A stretch of 22,041 nucleotides of DNA, taken from a virus. The notes beneath the pieces were generated by a model. That model made no database searches and had not been told where the DNA came from. It was given only the letters and a program-made list of their open reading frames with translations. Made by a program: the position numbers and the translations under genes. The stretch is taken from the IMG/VR virus record IMGVR_UViG_3300032309_000806, positions 1 through 22,041 of that record; one strand, written 5' to 3'. This document shows positions 1,383 to 6,225 of the stretch, piece by piece (position 1 is the stretch's first letter; each line of letters opens with the position of its first letter).

Positions 1383-1876
1383 TGAAACTAACAATATATC
1401 AAATCGAACAAAGCTATAACCAATTAGCAGAAGAATTAATCGAAAATGGTGGGGAATTAACCCCATCATTAGAGGAGCAGTTAGCAATCACAGAAGAGCA
1501 GTTGCAAAACAAATCAGTTGCGTATTCGTTTGTTATAAAGCAAATGGATGCTGATGTTGACATTATTTCTGCTGAAATTAAGAGGTTGCAAACAGCAAAG
1601 AAGCAACGCGAGAAAGCATCGGACTATCTAAAAGACCGCATTAAACACGCAATGGATTTATTTAGCATTGATGAGATTAAAACACCATTGGTGAAGATTA
1701 ACTTTCGCAAATCTGAAACTGTTGAGGTGGATGATGTCAATGCACTACCATCACTTTACAAGGTAGTTAAGGTAACAGAACAAGCCGATAAGGCTGCTAT
1801 TAAAGCAGCATTAAAGGATGGTGTTGAGATTGCTGGATGCAGTATAGCAACACATCGTAATTTGCAGATTAAGTAA
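1382..1876 (+). CDS. Gp157 family protein
   Basis: A 164-aa protein with the typical build of the siphovirus Gp157 family. An N-terminal helix (IYQIEQSYNQLAEEL) is followed by a long coiled-coil stretch at about residues 40-90, including DADVDIISAEIKRLQTAKKQ. The family signature then appears as DEIKTPLVKINFRKSETVEV, LPSLYKVVKVTEQADKAAIK and a final GCSIATHRNLQIK. The biochemical role of Gp157 is not firmly known; a streptococcal phage homologue was linked to phage resistance when expressed in the host. It usually sits beside recombination genes, as here. The start is set by the one-base TAATG overlap with the RecT-like gene. Its last codons overlap a promoter-like element and a palindrome. 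Confidence 0.85.
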   Translation: MKLTIYQIEQSYNQLAEELIENGGELTPSLEEQLAITEEQLQNKSVAYSFVIKQMDADVDIISAEIKRLQTAKKQREKASDYLKDRIKHAMDLFSIDEIKTPLVKINFRKSETVEVDDVNALPSLYKVVKVTEQADKAAIKAALKDGVEIAGCSIATHRNLQIK

Positions 1877-1892
1877 TTATTACTTATATTTG
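1861..1892 (+). promoter_or_regulatory. Bacteroidota-type promoter with spacer palindrome
   Basis: A TTTG at 1861-1864 and TATATTTG at 1885-1892 are separated by 20 nt, matching the Bacteroidota consensus (TTTG about -33, TAnnTTTG about -7). Transcription would start near 1897-1900, just after gp157. The spacer holds a perfect dyad, AAGTAAT T ATTACTT (1871-1885), which touches the -7 element and contains the gp157 stop codon. Such a position suits a repressor or activator operator. Boxes and dyad are directly visible; promoter activity and regulation are inferred. Confidence 0.55.
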
Positions 1893-1932
1893 CAAACGAA
1901 ATAACCGCCAAATTGAAAACATTTAACAACAT

Positions 1933-1990
1933 AACCCCTATTTTAGTGTGGCCTCTTGGCGGTGGCGCACTTTAGTAGGGGTTTCTTTAT
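1933..1990 (+). terminator. Nested hairpin, terminator- or attenuator-like
   Basis: An 8-bp stem AACCCCTA (1933-1940) / TAGGGGTT (1976-1983) encloses a second stem AGTGTG (1945-1950) / CGCACT (1966-1971, one G-T pair) and an inner GCC/GGC mini-stem, and is followed by TCTTTAT. The region is GC-rich against AT-rich surroundings. An upstream ACCGCCAA (1904-1911) is exactly complementary to TTGGCGGT (1956-1963) in the loop, so an alternative fold is possible. The T-tract is short, so this may be an attenuator or a small RNA end and not a strong terminator. Confidence 0.45.
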
Positions 1991-2126: not shown

Positions 2127-2761
2127 TGAAAGATACATTTATAATACGTTCAGAGTGGTGGCCTGCCATCTCTAAACTAAACGATACCCAAAAGGCAATA
2201 ATACTATCCAACCTATTTAACTTTCACGCAGATGGCCAAGTTGACCTATCTGATGCTCTGGTTGAGTTAGTCTGGTCATTCATTGAGCCTAACCTTATAC
2301 GCAATATGGCCAATTATGAAGACCGTGTGAAGAAAGCCTCTGAAAATGGCAAAAAAGGAGGTCGCCCAAAAAGCGAAGAAAACCTAAATAAAGGGTTGGC
2401 TTTTTTGGAAACCAATAAAAAGCCAATTGAAAGCCTAAATGTAAGTGTAAGTGTAAGTGATAGTGTAAGTGTAAATGAAAGTGTTAATGTGAGTGATAAA
2501 ATAGGCGCACCCGCCCGCACGGATTTTCTTTCTTTTTGTCAAGGATTAGATATAGACTTTGAGAAGTTAAAAGAAACTATTGAAGAAAAATATAACACTT
2601 GGATTAAAAACGGATGGAAAGATGGTAATGGTAAGCAGATTGATGACTGGCAGCAGAAAATTAAAAACACTTTACCATACTTAAAGCCAATGCCGAAAAA
2701 ACAAACAAACAACGATATAGTAAAAGCAAAAGGTAACTGGGGAGGTAAGAATGCAAAATAA
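2126..2761 (+). CDS. DUF6291-type replisome organiser / replication initiation protein
   Basis: A 211-aa protein in three parts. Residues 1-85 match the DUF6291 pattern (SEWWPAISKLNDTQKAIILSN, then EPNLIRNMANYEDRVKKASE and NGKKGGRPKS), found in phage replication proteins. Residues 106-125 are a low-complexity linker of alternating Ser and Val/Asp/Asn. Residues 130-195 form a second conserved domain with KYNTWIKNGWKDGNGK and NTLPYLKP, seen in primosome accessory proteins of Bacteroidota phages. It is followed directly, with an 11-nt overlap, by the DnaB helicase gene, so it probably recognises the origin and helps load the helicase. The linker is encoded by hexamer repeats that may themselves form part of the origin. 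Domain matches are from pattern; function is inferred. Confidence 0.65.
   Translation: MKDTFIIRSEWWPAISKLNDTQKAIILSNLFNFHADGQVDLSDALVELVWSFIEPNLIRNMANYEDRVKKASENGKKGGRPKSEENLNKGLAFLETNKKPIESLNVSVSVSDSVSVNESVNVSDKIGAPARTDFLSFCQGLDIDFEKLKETIEEKYNTWIKNGWKDGNGKQIDDWQQKIKNTLPYLKPMPKKQTNNDIVKAKGNWGGKNAK
2396..2426. repeat. Inverted repeat inside replisome organiser gene
   Basis: TTGGCTTTTT (2396-2405) and AAAAAGCCAA (2417-2426) are perfect 10-bp inverted repeats. The 11-nt loop contains a further small dyad, TTGG AAA CCAA. The hairpin lies 14 nt before the hexamer array at 2441-2500, within coding sequence for the start of the protein linker. It could be an origin structure or a chance product of the A/T-rich codons. 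Confidence 0.5.
2441..2500 (+). repeat. Ten imperfect GTAAGT-type hexamer repeats
   Basis: Ten consecutive in-phase hexamers: GTAAGT three times, then GATAGT, GTAAGT, GTAAAT, GAAAGT, GTTAAT, GTGAGT and GATAAA. Each unit encodes a dipeptide of Val, Asp or Glu plus Ser or Asn (Lys in the last), forming the low-complexity linker of the replisome organiser. Iteron arrays inside initiator genes are known as phage origins, for example in lambda O. The array could equally be only a flexible protein linker that expanded by slippage. Confidence 0.75.
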
Positions 2762-4187
2762 AAAGAAAACAGTACGCATTGATGATGATGCCACAATAGA
2801 ATGGGGAAAACTACCACCACAAGCAGATGACTTGGAAGTGTCAATTATAGGTGCAATACTTATTCGTGCTACCTGCATAGATGAGATTGTTGACTTTTTT
2901 CGACCAGATATGATGTACAAGGAAAGCCATAAGGTTATACTTGAAGCAATCTACACACTTTACAAACTTTCAAGCCCAATCACAGTTATAACTGTAAACA
3001 CAGAATTGAAGCGCACAAGTAATTTAGAAAAGGCTGGAGGTACTTATTATCTAACAACCTTATGCAACAAAGCAGATTTCAATGTAGAATACAATGCAAG
3101 GATAGTCTTTCAAAAATACACGCAGCGTGAACTTATATTAATGTCAGCAGGTATTATCAAGGAAAGTTATCAAGACAACGTAGATGCGTTTGAAATGCTT
3201 GAAAAAGGACAAAATATGATTGACAAGGTTACGCAAACTATTCACGTAGGTAAGTTTGATAATGTTACAGATTTGTTCTTTGAATCTGAAAAACGAAATT
3301 TAGAAATTAGATCAAAGCAAGGAATTAGTGGTGTTCCAAGTGGCTATTTTGATATTGATAAAATTACTGGAGGTTGGCAAAGTAGTGATTTAATAATTTT
3401 AGCGGCAAGACCCGGAATGGGTAAAACTGCATTTGTTTTAAATATTGCCAGAAATGCAGCAGTTGACTTTAATGAGCCGATAGCGTTGTTTAGTTTAGAA
3501 ATGTCCTCAATGCAATTAATAAATCGTTTGCAAAGTGCCGAAAGCGAAATACCTTTGGAAAAATTTATGCGTACTGGATTAAACGATGCTGAGGTACAAC
3601 AAAAGAGGTTAAAATGTCAAAAGTTAGTCGATAGTAAAATATTTATTGATGATACCCCTGCAATATCGGTGTTTGAACTAAAAGTAAAACTTAAAAAATT
3701 AAAGCGTGACCACAATATTAAACTTGCAATTGTTGACTATATTCAACTTATGACTGCTGGAAAGGTTGACAATGTTAACGGAAGAGAGCAGGAAGTTGGA
3801 TATATTTCGCGTTCATTGAAAGGCATTGCCAAAGAATTAAACATTCCAATTATTGCACTGTCACAACTTAGCCGAAAGGTTGAAGAACGTGCTGATAGAA
3901 CACCAATATTGTCCGATTTGCGTGAGAGTGGAAGCATTGAGCAGGATGCAGATATGGTTATTTTTTTATTTAGGCCAGAGTATCACGGAATAATGGAGGA
4001 CAACGATGGCAATAGCACAGTTGGCAAAGCGCAGTTTATTATTGCAAAACATCGAAATGGTGCAACAACTGATGATATTCTTCTTGGATGGGATGGTCAA
4101 TATACCAAGTTTAGAGATATAAATGAGGCAGTAAATAAAGAAGCACCAGTGTTTACATCAAACTTAAAAGCAAATGAAGATTTTTAG
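2751..4187 (+). CDS. dnaB: Replicative DNA helicase (DnaB family)
   Basis: A 478-aa hexameric replicative helicase of normal DnaB length. The N-terminal collar domain spans about residues 20-125 (DDLEVSIIGAIL, VITVNTELK, AGGTYYLTTL). The RecA-like motor begins near residue 195 with PSGYFDIDKITGGWQSSDL. Visible motifs are Walker A ARPGMGKT (219-226), FSLEMS (247-252), Walker B LAIVDYIQLM (325-334), SQLSR (371-375), DLRESGSIEQDAD, and a KHRNG arginine-finger region (433-437). It unwinds the replication fork and would act with the preceding organiser, which it overlaps by 11 nt. The nuclease gene downstream overlaps its end by 14 nt. All catalytic residues appear intact. The short basic N-terminus could be trimmed by a later start, but none is better. 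Confidence 0.95.
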   Translation: MQNKKKTVRIDDDATIEWGKLPPQADDLEVSIIGAILIRATCIDEIVDFFRPDMMYKESHKVILEAIYTLYKLSSPITVITVNTELKRTSNLEKAGGTYYLTTLCNKADFNVEYNARIVFQKYTQRELILMSAGIIKESYQDNVDAFEMLEKGQNMIDKVTQTIHVGKFDNVTDLFFESEKRNLEIRSKQGISGVPSGYFDIDKITGGWQSSDLIILAARPGMGKTAFVLNIARNAAVDFNEPIALFSLEMSSMQLINRLQSAESEIPLEKFMRTGLNDAEVQQKRLKCQKLVDSKIFIDDTPAISVFELKVKLKKLKRDHNIKLAIVDYIQLMTAGKVDNVNGREQEVGYISRSLKGIAKELNIPIIALSQLSRKVEERADRTPILSDLRESGSIEQDADMVIFLFRPEYHGIMEDNDGNSTVGKAQFIIAKHRNGATTDDILLGWDGQYTKFRDINEAVNKEAPVFTSNLKANEDF

Positions 4188-4704
4188 CATCCCCGAATTT
4201 GAACTCTATTACCACAATCAATACAAACGGTCAAACATGAATCAAGCGTTTTGGCAAACATTACCGATTGAGCGATTTAACCTTAACAAAAAGAAAGTTG
4301 TTAAGAAGCGAAAGGCGGAGCTCACGACTAATCATTTAGACTTACCGGTAAACAATGTTATCCAACCGAAAGAAACCAAAGATGCTTTCAATACTAATAA
4401 GTTTACCGATTTAATCATTGCTTACCTTAAAGCAGTACATAGTTGCAATAGTGCGAGGCGCATTAGTAGTGAGGGTAGATATCGAAAGGGCATAGGTTAC
4501 ATTGCAGGGCTTAACAAAGGAATGGAAGACATCCAATGTATATTGAGAGGCCGATTGTTCGCCATTGAAGTCAAATCACCAACCGATAAGATAAGCGAAG
4601 CACAACTAAAACGAAAAGCAGCAATCGAATTAGATGGAGGTAATTACATTGTAGCTACATCATTTGAGCAAGTGCAAAATGAAATATTAGGATATTTAAA
4701 ATAA
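4174..4704 (+). CDS. VRR-NUC-like nuclease
   Basis: A 176-aa protein whose C-terminal 80 residues resemble VRR-NUC domains, a PD-(D/E)xK nuclease family related to Holliday junction resolvases. Visible elements are GRYRKGIGYIAGLNKGMEDI, then GRLFAIEVKS, SEAQLKRKAAIELDGGNY and IVATSFEQV. The presumed metal ligands are D119, E132 and K134. The usual G-x-P-D signature reads GMED here, so the proline is replaced. Residues 1-75 are basic and poorly conserved-looking, perhaps a DNA-binding extension. It overlaps the dnaB end by 14 nt, so it probably serves recombination intermediates or replication forks. A 16-nt gap then separates it from the packaging genes, making it the last gene of the replication block. 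Confidence 0.7.
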   Translation: MKIFSIPEFELYYHNQYKRSNMNQAFWQTLPIERFNLNKKKVVKKRKAELTTNHLDLPVNNVIQPKETKDAFNTNKFTDLIIAYLKAVHSCNSARRISSEGRYRKGIGYIAGLNKGMEDIQCILRGRLFAIEVKSPTDKISEAQLKRKAAIELDGGNYIVATSFEQVQNEILGYLK

Positions 4705-4720: not shown

Positions 4721-5272
4721 ATGAAAAGTAAACAAACCGAAAATATAAAGGTAACATCACTAATTGCTGATGATAAGAACTTTAATAAAGGTAGCGAGAA
4801 TGGCGCAGAAATGATACGCAAATCGTTTGAAAAGTTCGGAGCAGGTAGAAGTATACTTTTGGATAAGAACAACCGTATAATCGCAGGAAACAAGTCAGTT
4901 GAGTTTTCTGGCATTGAAGATGTTCTTATTGTAGAATCCGATGGCACTCAACTAATAGCGGTAAAGAGAACAGACATTGATTTGGATTCACCACAAGGCA
5001 GAGAGATGGCACTGGCTGATAATGCTTCGGCAAAGGCTAACATCGTGTTTGATGCTGAATTGATTGAAGCAGAACTTGGCGAGGCGGTTTGTGAGGAGTG
5101 GGGGATTGATGTTGCACAACAAGACATTGAAGAAATAGATAATTTTAATGAGGCAGTTAAATTTACGATTGATTGTAAAAATATTGAGGAATTAGAAAAG
5201 TTGCAGACTAAATTAAATGTATCAGGCAAAAAAATATCGTATGAAGATTTTTTAATAAAGGCTGCATTATGA
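4721..5272 (+). CDS. ParB/Srx-like N-terminal domain protein
   Basis: A 183-aa protein with a ParB-like N-terminal domain at about residues 8-110. It shows a substrate-choice segment (FNKGSENGAEMIRKSFEKFG), a GRSILLDKNNRIIAGN core where IIAGN replaces the usual GExR motif, and MALADNASAKANIVFD. Phage ParB-like proteins of this kind are often found next to terminase genes or fused to DNA methyltransferases. Here the C-terminal 45 residues (FTIDCKNIEELEKLQTKLNV...) are not a methyltransferase. It may act as a DNA-binding or nuclease accessory to packaging. The next gene starts within its stop codon (ATGA). Domain call is good; the precise role is unknown. Confidence 0.7.
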   Translation: MKSKQTENIKVTSLIADDKNFNKGSENGAEMIRKSFEKFGAGRSILLDKNNRIIAGNKSVEFSGIEDVLIVESDGTQLIAVKRTDIDLDSPQGREMALADNASAKANIVFDAELIEAELGEAVCEEWGIDVAQQDIEEIDNFNEAVKFTIDCKNIEELEKLQTKLNVSGKKISYEDFLIKAAL

Positions 5273-6225
5273 AGATTGCATTATTAGATGTTAAGGTAGG
5301 CACAAAAGTAGGAAGTAATTTTACAGCTGTAAATATGCGTAATATGATATTGCTTCAAAAAGAATTAGGTGCTGATTTTTATTATTCAACAGACCAATTG
5401 ATTAATAATAATAAGCAATATGATGTATTTATATTTGGTTTTGCAGGTAGAAATTCAGAAATTGAAAAACAAATAGAATTTATAAATAAATCTATTAATT
5501 ATAAATTATTTTGGTTAGTTGGAGAATATGAGCAAAATGATTATCCAGCATTGTTTTATATTTGCAATAGAAATAAAATTAAATATAATTTAATAAAAAA
5601 TTACAATAAAACTGAAAAAAGAAAATTAATAGATAATCAATATGAATTAAATCTTAATTTACTAATAGCTAAAAAATCAAATGAACTAATTAAAAAAAAA
5701 TATGATTGCATTTATTATGGTAGATGGAGAGAAGATAGGGCAGATTATTTTAAAAAGTATATTCAAGGTGGATTGTATTTAAGTACATCAACCAAAAATA
5801 TGAAAAAATTTAAGCACGAGGGATGCAATCCTAAATATTTAGATACAATTAGTTGGGCAGACAAAAAAGAAACATTAAATTTATTTAAATACTCATTATA
5901 CATTGAGGATAAGTATACTCATAGTGTATTCAATAATCTTGCTAATAGATGGTATGAGGCTGGATTTTGCAATGTAGTAGTATTTTTTGATATTAATTGT
6001 TGGAATACTATACGCAAGTCAGAGATAGGATATTATGAAGAACAGATTAAGGATTACATCGTAACAGATTATCAGTCATTGCAAGAAAAAATAGATTATT
6101 GTAATAAAAATTTTGAAAAACATTTAGCAATTCAAAAGGGATGGCGAATTCAAGAATTACAATTAAGAAGTGATATGATTAACGAATTAAAAAATATTGT
6201 AACTAATGGCAACACCATCACTTAA
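5269..6225 (+). CDS. Putative glycosyltransferase (GT-B-like), AT-rich insertion
   Basis: A 318-aa protein with features suggesting a nucleotide-sugar glycosyltransferase of GT-B type. There is an N-terminal alternating beta/alpha region (MKIALLDVKVG, YDVFIFGFAG, YKLFWLVGEYE), a central DCIYYGRWREDRADYFKKYI, and a late KYSLYIEDKYTHSVFNNLANRWYEAG then FCNVVVFFD segment. In GT-B enzymes that last region resembles the donor-binding part. The gene is markedly AT-rich: by hand count 53 of 300 bases at 5461-5760 are G or C (about 18%), against about 45% in a sampled terminase stretch. It lies between the ParB-like and terminase small subunit genes with 4-nt and 20-nt overlaps. This suggests recent acquisition. 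The acceptor is unknown, and the family call is tentative. Confidence 0.5.
   Translation: MKIALLDVKVGTKVGSNFTAVNMRNMILLQKELGADFYYSTDQLINNNKQYDVFIFGFAGRNSEIEKQIEFINKSINYKLFWLVGEYEQNDYPALFYICNRNKIKYNLIKNYNKTEKRKLIDNQYELNLNLLIAKKSNELIKKKYDCIYYGRWREDRADYFKKYIQGGLYLSTSTKNMKKFKHEGCNPKYLDTISWADKKETLNLFKYSLYIEDKYTHSVFNNLANRWYEAGFCNVVVFFDINCWNTIRKSEIGYYEEQIKDYIVTDYQSLQEKIDYCNKNFEKHLAIQKGWRIQELQLRSDMINELKNIVTNGNTIT

Follow-up and report, generated by a model that had tools for sequence, protein, structure and literature searches.

A putative cis-acting leader RNA with two complementary segments upstream of a phage replication operon

Results and discussion

A predicted leader between Gp157 and the replication operon

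The window, by which we mean the whole stretch of DNA analysed, is a virus contig of 22,041 bases, from a Bacteroidota phage, with 37% GC overall. A gap of 121 bp separates a Gp157/Gam-like gene (1382–1876) from a 42-aa ORF (1998–2126), behind which lie genes for a DUF6291 protein and a DnaB-like replicative helicase. Gene functions are taken from profile matches throughout, except those marked as our own recognition; for the 42-aa ORF, Pfam and PHROG searches returned no match. Further downstream, the ORF at 5269–6225 (318 aa) has ~22% GC compared with 37% for the genome, which suggests that it was recently acquired. The genes and the elements of the gap are as follows.

1382–1876, + strand: Gp157/Gam-like gene, upstream (Pfam PF05565, E 8e-34); its 3' end overlaps the -33 box
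1861–1892, + strand: Bacteroidota-type promoter, with TTTG at 1861–1864, a 20-nt spacer and TATATTTG at 1885–1892
1871–1885, no strand: AAGTAAT-T-ATTACTT dyad between the promoter boxes, seen in the sequence
1904–1911, + strand: 5' pairing element K5 (ACCGCCAA), exact complement of 1956–1963
1912–1932, + strand: A-rich linker from K5 to the terminator hairpin, seen in the sequence; similar A-rich linkers occur in other leader types
1933–1983, + strand: terminator hairpin, outer stem 1933–1942/1974–1983
1945–1949/1967–1971 and 1951–1953/1964–1966, + strand: inner stem of the terminator hairpin, from the fold
1956–1963, + strand: apical-loop pairing element K3 (TTGGCGGT), exact complement of K5
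1982–1990, + strand: T-rich tract of the intrinsic terminator (TTTCTTTAT), seen in the sequence
1998–2126, + strand: 42-aa ORF (MKIFFIKSPTGK...), first gene after the leader
2126–2761, + strand: DUF6291 protein, second gene past the leader (Pfam PF19808, E 2e-20)
2751–4187, + strand: DnaB-like replicative helicase (Pfam PF03796/PF00772; PHROG 19)

The original prediction described 1861–1990 as a promoter with an operator-like palindrome followed by a hairpin region that could switch between two folds, giving either a separate small RNA or an attenuator, and every element that it listed is present where it had been placed. The transcript is predicted to start at about 1897. The core at 1945–1971, which had been called unusually GC-rich, has 67% GC against 37% for the window, and only 0.34% of the window's 27-mers are as GC-rich. 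The 94-nt fold has an energy of -27.2 kcal/mol, compared with -18.5 ± 2.8 kcal/mol for dinucleotide shuffles (z = -3.1). The complementarity between K5 and K3 is exact; only ~0.2% of composition shuffles give the 5' segment and the apical loop a complementary stretch of 8 nt. In the window, K5 is largely single-stranded, while K3 lies in the unpaired apical loop of a pseudoknot-compatible hairpin, where it directly adjoins the 3' side of the inner stem and is separated from the 5' side by 2 nt (TC). Because K3 sits in this unpaired loop, the K5–K3 pairing and the terminator hairpin can form together, the terminator stem being left intact.

Leader types among relatives and covariation of the pairings

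A search with the Gp157 protein yielded 79 loci, and in 62 of these the gap holds a leader of type A (the type of the window), type B or type C. The three types are unrelated in sequence and equal in layout, with a TAnnTTTG-type box, K5, an A-rich linker, a hairpin carrying K3 in its apical loop, a T-rich tract and a start codon. In types B and C, K5 forms the loop of a 5'-terminal hairpin. Both K partners lie in hairpin loops in types B, C, D and F and in most of the new clusters described below, and in the same types and clusters the 3' partner adjoins its stem, which is a kissing-loop geometry. The two alternative folds originally proposed are thus doubtful, as nothing but the apical loop of the terminator takes part in K pairing, which in most types has kissing-loop geometry, and a mutually exclusive two-state attenuator was rejected since K pairing does not disrupt the terminator stem. 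Most likely, both pairings coexist as a kissing loop or pseudoknot rather than alternate, because the stem stays intact and K3 adjoins its 3' strand, a placement that would suit stacking of the kissing helix; comparison among the relatives points to coexistence as well.

The TAnnTTTG-type box is present in all 62 leader-bearing relatives and is kept where the upstream gene differs (L083, L088 and L152), whereas a perfect form of the dyad at 1871–1885, which takes in the Gp157 stop codon, occurs in only 34 of the 62. Given this restricted distribution, we find no support for the palindrome as an operator and have dropped that assignment; the dyad is probably incidental.

Covariance among relatives had been proposed as a check, and compensatory changes do back the long-range pairing. 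In type B, the K5–K3 helix is paired in all 17 distinct sequences (100% of cells), with two-sided changes in four of its eight pairs (GATTCCAC, GGTCTCAC and GGTTCGAC, with exact complements). The whole type B structure is paired in 99.2% of cells compared with 29–52% when the partners are slid, a control that was run on the whole structure and not on the K helix alone. RNAalifold, which cannot draw kissing pairs, predicts both hairpins from the type B alignment and leaves exactly the K columns as loops. Both partners are altered together in type C (GTTGCGG/CCGCAAC to GTTGCGC/GCGCAAC) and in type F (GATGCAG/CTGCATC to GATACAG/CTGTATC). In type A, the terminator stem has five pairs with two-sided changes and 97.8% of cells paired (25 relatives), and an insertion variant, ACCCGCCAA, is matched by TTGGCGGGT, the length changing on both sides (ACC(C)GCCAA/TTGGCGG(G)T). 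Because the type A K helix hardly varies (seven of eight aligned pairs are invariant), direct support for the window's type consists of the terminator stem and this length variant. The prediction of a short promoter-to-terminator transcript upstream of the replication operon is supported, and with it a conserved long-range pairing, for which the compensatory changes are the evidence.

Some relatives (for example L010) carry a plain terminator directly after Gp157, which would fit the hairpin being an ordinary insulating terminator behind the Gp157 operon, its complementarity to K5 arising by chance. However, at least seven relatives with a plain terminator or a further gene after Gp157 carry a type F motif before an MTVTIYK/MIVTIYK primase, and in L035, L045, L046 and L053 this motif lies 677–697 nt past the end of Gp157, behind an extra gene. 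This placement of the leader further on in at least seven plain-terminator relatives, before the primase or behind an extra gene, together with compensatory changes in both loops and the 28 clusters against 0–5 in controls reported below, makes an insulating terminator hardly credible. The leader also stays next to the downstream gene where the upstream gene differs (L083/L088/L150/L152), and these placements favour linkage to the downstream gene.

We note that one 39.6-kb record, IMGVR_UViG_3300042310_000167 (L038/L116/L123), has the Gp157–leader–primase segment near both ends with small differences, so that two near-identical type A leaders stand in near-identical gene contexts; this duplication is probably an assembly overlap of strain variants.

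A search by geometry alone

A descriptor based only on geometry found further leader types. Further loci came from IMG/VR pattern scans and from VirE-primase relatives in IMG/VR and GTDB contigs. As looser geometry filters gave many chance hits, we used a strict version that requires a promoter, a 5' loop, a terminator hairpin with a complementary apical loop, a T-run and an ATG within 45 nt, with K segments of 7–9 nt, at least 4 G/C and K3 adjoining the 3' stem strand. It returned 28 leader clusters from 231 hits, compared with 1, 3, 0 and 5 clusters in scrambled controls (K reversed, complemented or rotated), a contrast that is somewhat favourable in that the strict thresholds were set after the looser-filter background had been viewed. 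The clusters, which are grouped by an 8-mer rule and not by phylogeny, include three subtypes of A, three of B and four of C; their sources are contigs from IMG/VR, contigs of Bacteroidota MAGs and two cultured phages. In 25 of the 28 the 5' stem has at least 4 bp, and K3 is flanked by 0–2 nt on its 5' side and by 0 nt on its 3' side, the latter being set by the filter. In 1.2 Mb of host chromosome from two Bacteroidota genomes, there were 10 loose hits, two with a nearby ATG, and these look like chance hits in coding sequence.

A less tuned test is the search without promoter and T-run requirements, itself one of several descriptor versions tried, in which 23 of 55 clusters had both features compared with 1 of 37 and 0 of 27 in controls; the remaining ~30 of the 55 resemble chance background. 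This search bears on a further explanation, in which the leader is a structured 5' UTR for the control of mRNA stability or translation, its hairpin and kissing fold protecting the mRNA or gating the ribosome, and the T-run is AT-rich sequence and not a signal for termination. The predicted transcript does begin with the 5' hairpin, and ~20 nt separate the second hairpin from the start codon. Nevertheless, 23 of 25 promoter-bearing clusters have a T-run where none was required, as expected of terminators, and we regard the 5' UTR explanation as improbable.

Genes downstream of the leaders

A start codon follows the terminator arm by 10–37 nt in 28 of 28 clusters, an ATG within 45 nt being, like the T-run, a filter condition of the strict search; dropping the ATG requirement added only four clusters, no more than controls yield. 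The genes after the leaders include VapE/BT4734-type (VirE-type) primases, NUMOD4-HNH endonucleases, small ORFs starting MKIF and MYTYY, and others. Because the loci were gathered largely via replication genes, they undersample the variety of genes that follow leaders and inflate the apparent link to replication. One leader precedes the gene for a protein starting MNVLSLFDGMSCG, which by our own motif recognition resembles, we presume, C5 cytosine methyltransferases. Some phages with a type A or B leader have a second one, of type GTAGGAG/CTCCTAC, on the other strand (L088 on the minus strand, L091, L103, L104, L130, L153, L175, L274 and L275), where it precedes several different genes, among them the one whose product starts MNVLSLFDGMSCG.

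The leaders of cultured phages were found only by the geometry search. In Tenacibaculum phage Gundel_1, a leader stands before the gene for an AntA-type antirepressor (gp64), and Flavobacterium phage mumin9-1 has one strict-search leader, before the gp34 endonuclease. A second mumin9-1 candidate, returned by the looser search only, stands before the gp37–helicase–primase operon with the segments GTGGAACG/CGTTCCAC, a T-run and an ATG ~24 nt on. Phage LS06-2018-MD05 has two looser candidates, which are not among the 28 clusters; their loop pairs are unlike each other, and neither has an ORF of 35 aa or longer within the following 300 nt. Under the strict filter, no leader came from five more cultured genomes, whole or in part (L213, L214, L216, L219 and L320). 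In L301, L270, L210, L215, L281 and L293, leaders or looser candidates lie directly before NUMOD4-HNH endonuclease genes, which may be mobile genes that bring the leader along; as an independent set, relatives of the NUMOD4 endonuclease returned only two loci.

A cis-acting attenuator or a trans-acting RNA

The original prediction left two options, a separate RNA and an attenuator of the replication operon, and under either one a terminated short RNA would be made. The leader has the layout of a cis-acting attenuator with an intrinsic terminator, namely a promoter, a short leader, a terminator hairpin with a U-tract and a gene in the same direction. Since the start codon closely follows the terminator in all 28 clusters, we favour, with moderate confidence, an attenuator that would act in cis, from the 5' leader, on transcription of the replication operon. 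No known switch input for such an attenuator was identified.

The main rival is a trans-acting small RNA of the phage with its own promoter and terminator, in which K5 or K3 would serve as the recognition loop for host or phage RNAs, or for the corresponding leader in a super-infecting phage, in the manner of the P4 CI and P1 C4 RNAs or of IsrK. The next gene would then be expressed by incidental read-through or as a second function. The promoter-to-terminator unit is indeed self-contained, the K sequences vary among otherwise near-identical type B leaders, and wherever one genome was seen to have two different leaders, these do not share their K sequences. The nearness of the start codon speaks for the attenuator, yet a separate small-RNA gene might also end just before the next start codon, given how compact phage genomes are. 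On the other hand, the types have no conserved seed in common, the two K elements of one molecule occupy each other, a start codon lies within 45 nt in every cluster (a filter condition whose removal adds only four clusters), and elsewhere in the window K is matched only by isolated 8-nt stretches, in predicted coding regions. On balance we consider a trans-acting RNA rather unlikely.

All of this evidence comes from comparing sequences, which establishes the layout, the long-range pairing, its covariation, the recurrence of the leaders and their closeness to a start codon. For the cis-acting attenuator, transcription, termination and read-through as we infer them would proceed as follows. Host RNA polymerase would start near 1897, and the nascent RNA would expose K5, in a 5'-terminal hairpin loop in most relatives and largely single-stranded in the window's type. 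About 45 nt later, K3 would emerge in the apical loop of the terminator and pair with K5, giving a kissing-loop or pseudoknot fold. Some of the polymerases would stop at ~1990, releasing a structured RNA of ~95 nt, and the remainder would read through into the operon, whose start codon follows directly. That the kissing helix hinders termination is a guess. As K5, K3 and their flanks vary freely while the layout is kept, the leader RNA probably works via the geometry or timing of its folding and not via a conserved ligand or protein site.

Comparison with known systems

At gathering threshold, Rfam gave no matches in the window or in the loci carrying types A–F, and at permissive thresholds nothing relevant. 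We rejected a riboswitch on this result and on inspection, which revealed no apparent sequence core across the clusters; because of the latter, a classical ligand pocket is unlikely. Mimicry of a CRISPR repeat by type B (GTTTC...GAAAC) was dropped as the other types share nothing with it. BLASTN searches of INPHARED phages, with the region from the window and with leaders of types B and C as queries, gave only short unrelated matches or none, and a literature search for kissing-loop terminators or leader RNAs of Bacteroidota phages found none.

The CI RNA of phage P4 and the C4 RNA of phage P1 are short RNAs derived from leaders that precede phage replication or antirepressor genes and contain mutually complementary segments; they act in trans and use separate target sites. 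One of our leaders likewise precedes an AntA-type antirepressor. The Rfam family of C4, RF01695, had no match in the window or in loci carrying types A–F.

Three described systems share parts of the predicted behaviour. At the IsrK locus of the Salmonella prophage Gifsy-1, a prophage promoter and terminator yield a short RNA, as predicted here, and terminator read-through gives a longer mRNA for the next gene (PMC4825925). IsrK is a precedent for a dual small RNA and messenger; unlike the leader as read here, it acts in trans on its own long form and is a single locus in another phylum, and its abstract states no loop–loop pairing with the terminator apex (PMC4825925). In the pT181 attenuator, too, hairpin-loop contacts in a 5' leader decide whether an intrinsic terminator acts downstream, but an antisense RNA kisses the leader in trans and an anti-terminator segment pairs with the terminator stem (PMC4878617), whereas our leaders have both loops in cis and pair the apical loop, not the stem. 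The put RNA of HK022 likewise folds within the nascent phage transcript and influences termination in cis; it does so by direct binding to the elongation complex, whose pausing and termination it suppresses (PMC9378689), whereas here the partner structure is the terminator itself and there is no conserved sequence.

The feature is larger than first noted, with many unrelated sequences of the same predicted shape before many phage genes, and this recurrent shape probably represents a kind of on/off gate, not yet described, that acts on phage genes. More tentatively, and with some doubt, the leaders could form a widespread phage RNA class that is defined by geometry and free of sequence constraint, in which a 5'-terminal loop docks on a terminator apex ~90 nt downstream and times or locks termination, each operon having an orthogonal loop pair and the terminated leaders acting also as trans repressors. 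If the gate is real, many Bacteroidota phage genes would stand behind a common RNA element that escapes profile searches, being conserved in geometry alone. Such an element would offer a concrete way to study when these phages switch on replication and accessory genes, a collection of natural cis-acting loop–terminator parts that seem to be orthogonal, and a test case for discovering RNA elements by structure alone.

As a minor observation, the genome L217 (OP947161.1), labelled Rhodobacteraceae, has leader candidates at 4529 and 20501, each apparently with two complementary segments and Bacteroidota-like promoter boxes, and its host label may be worth checking.
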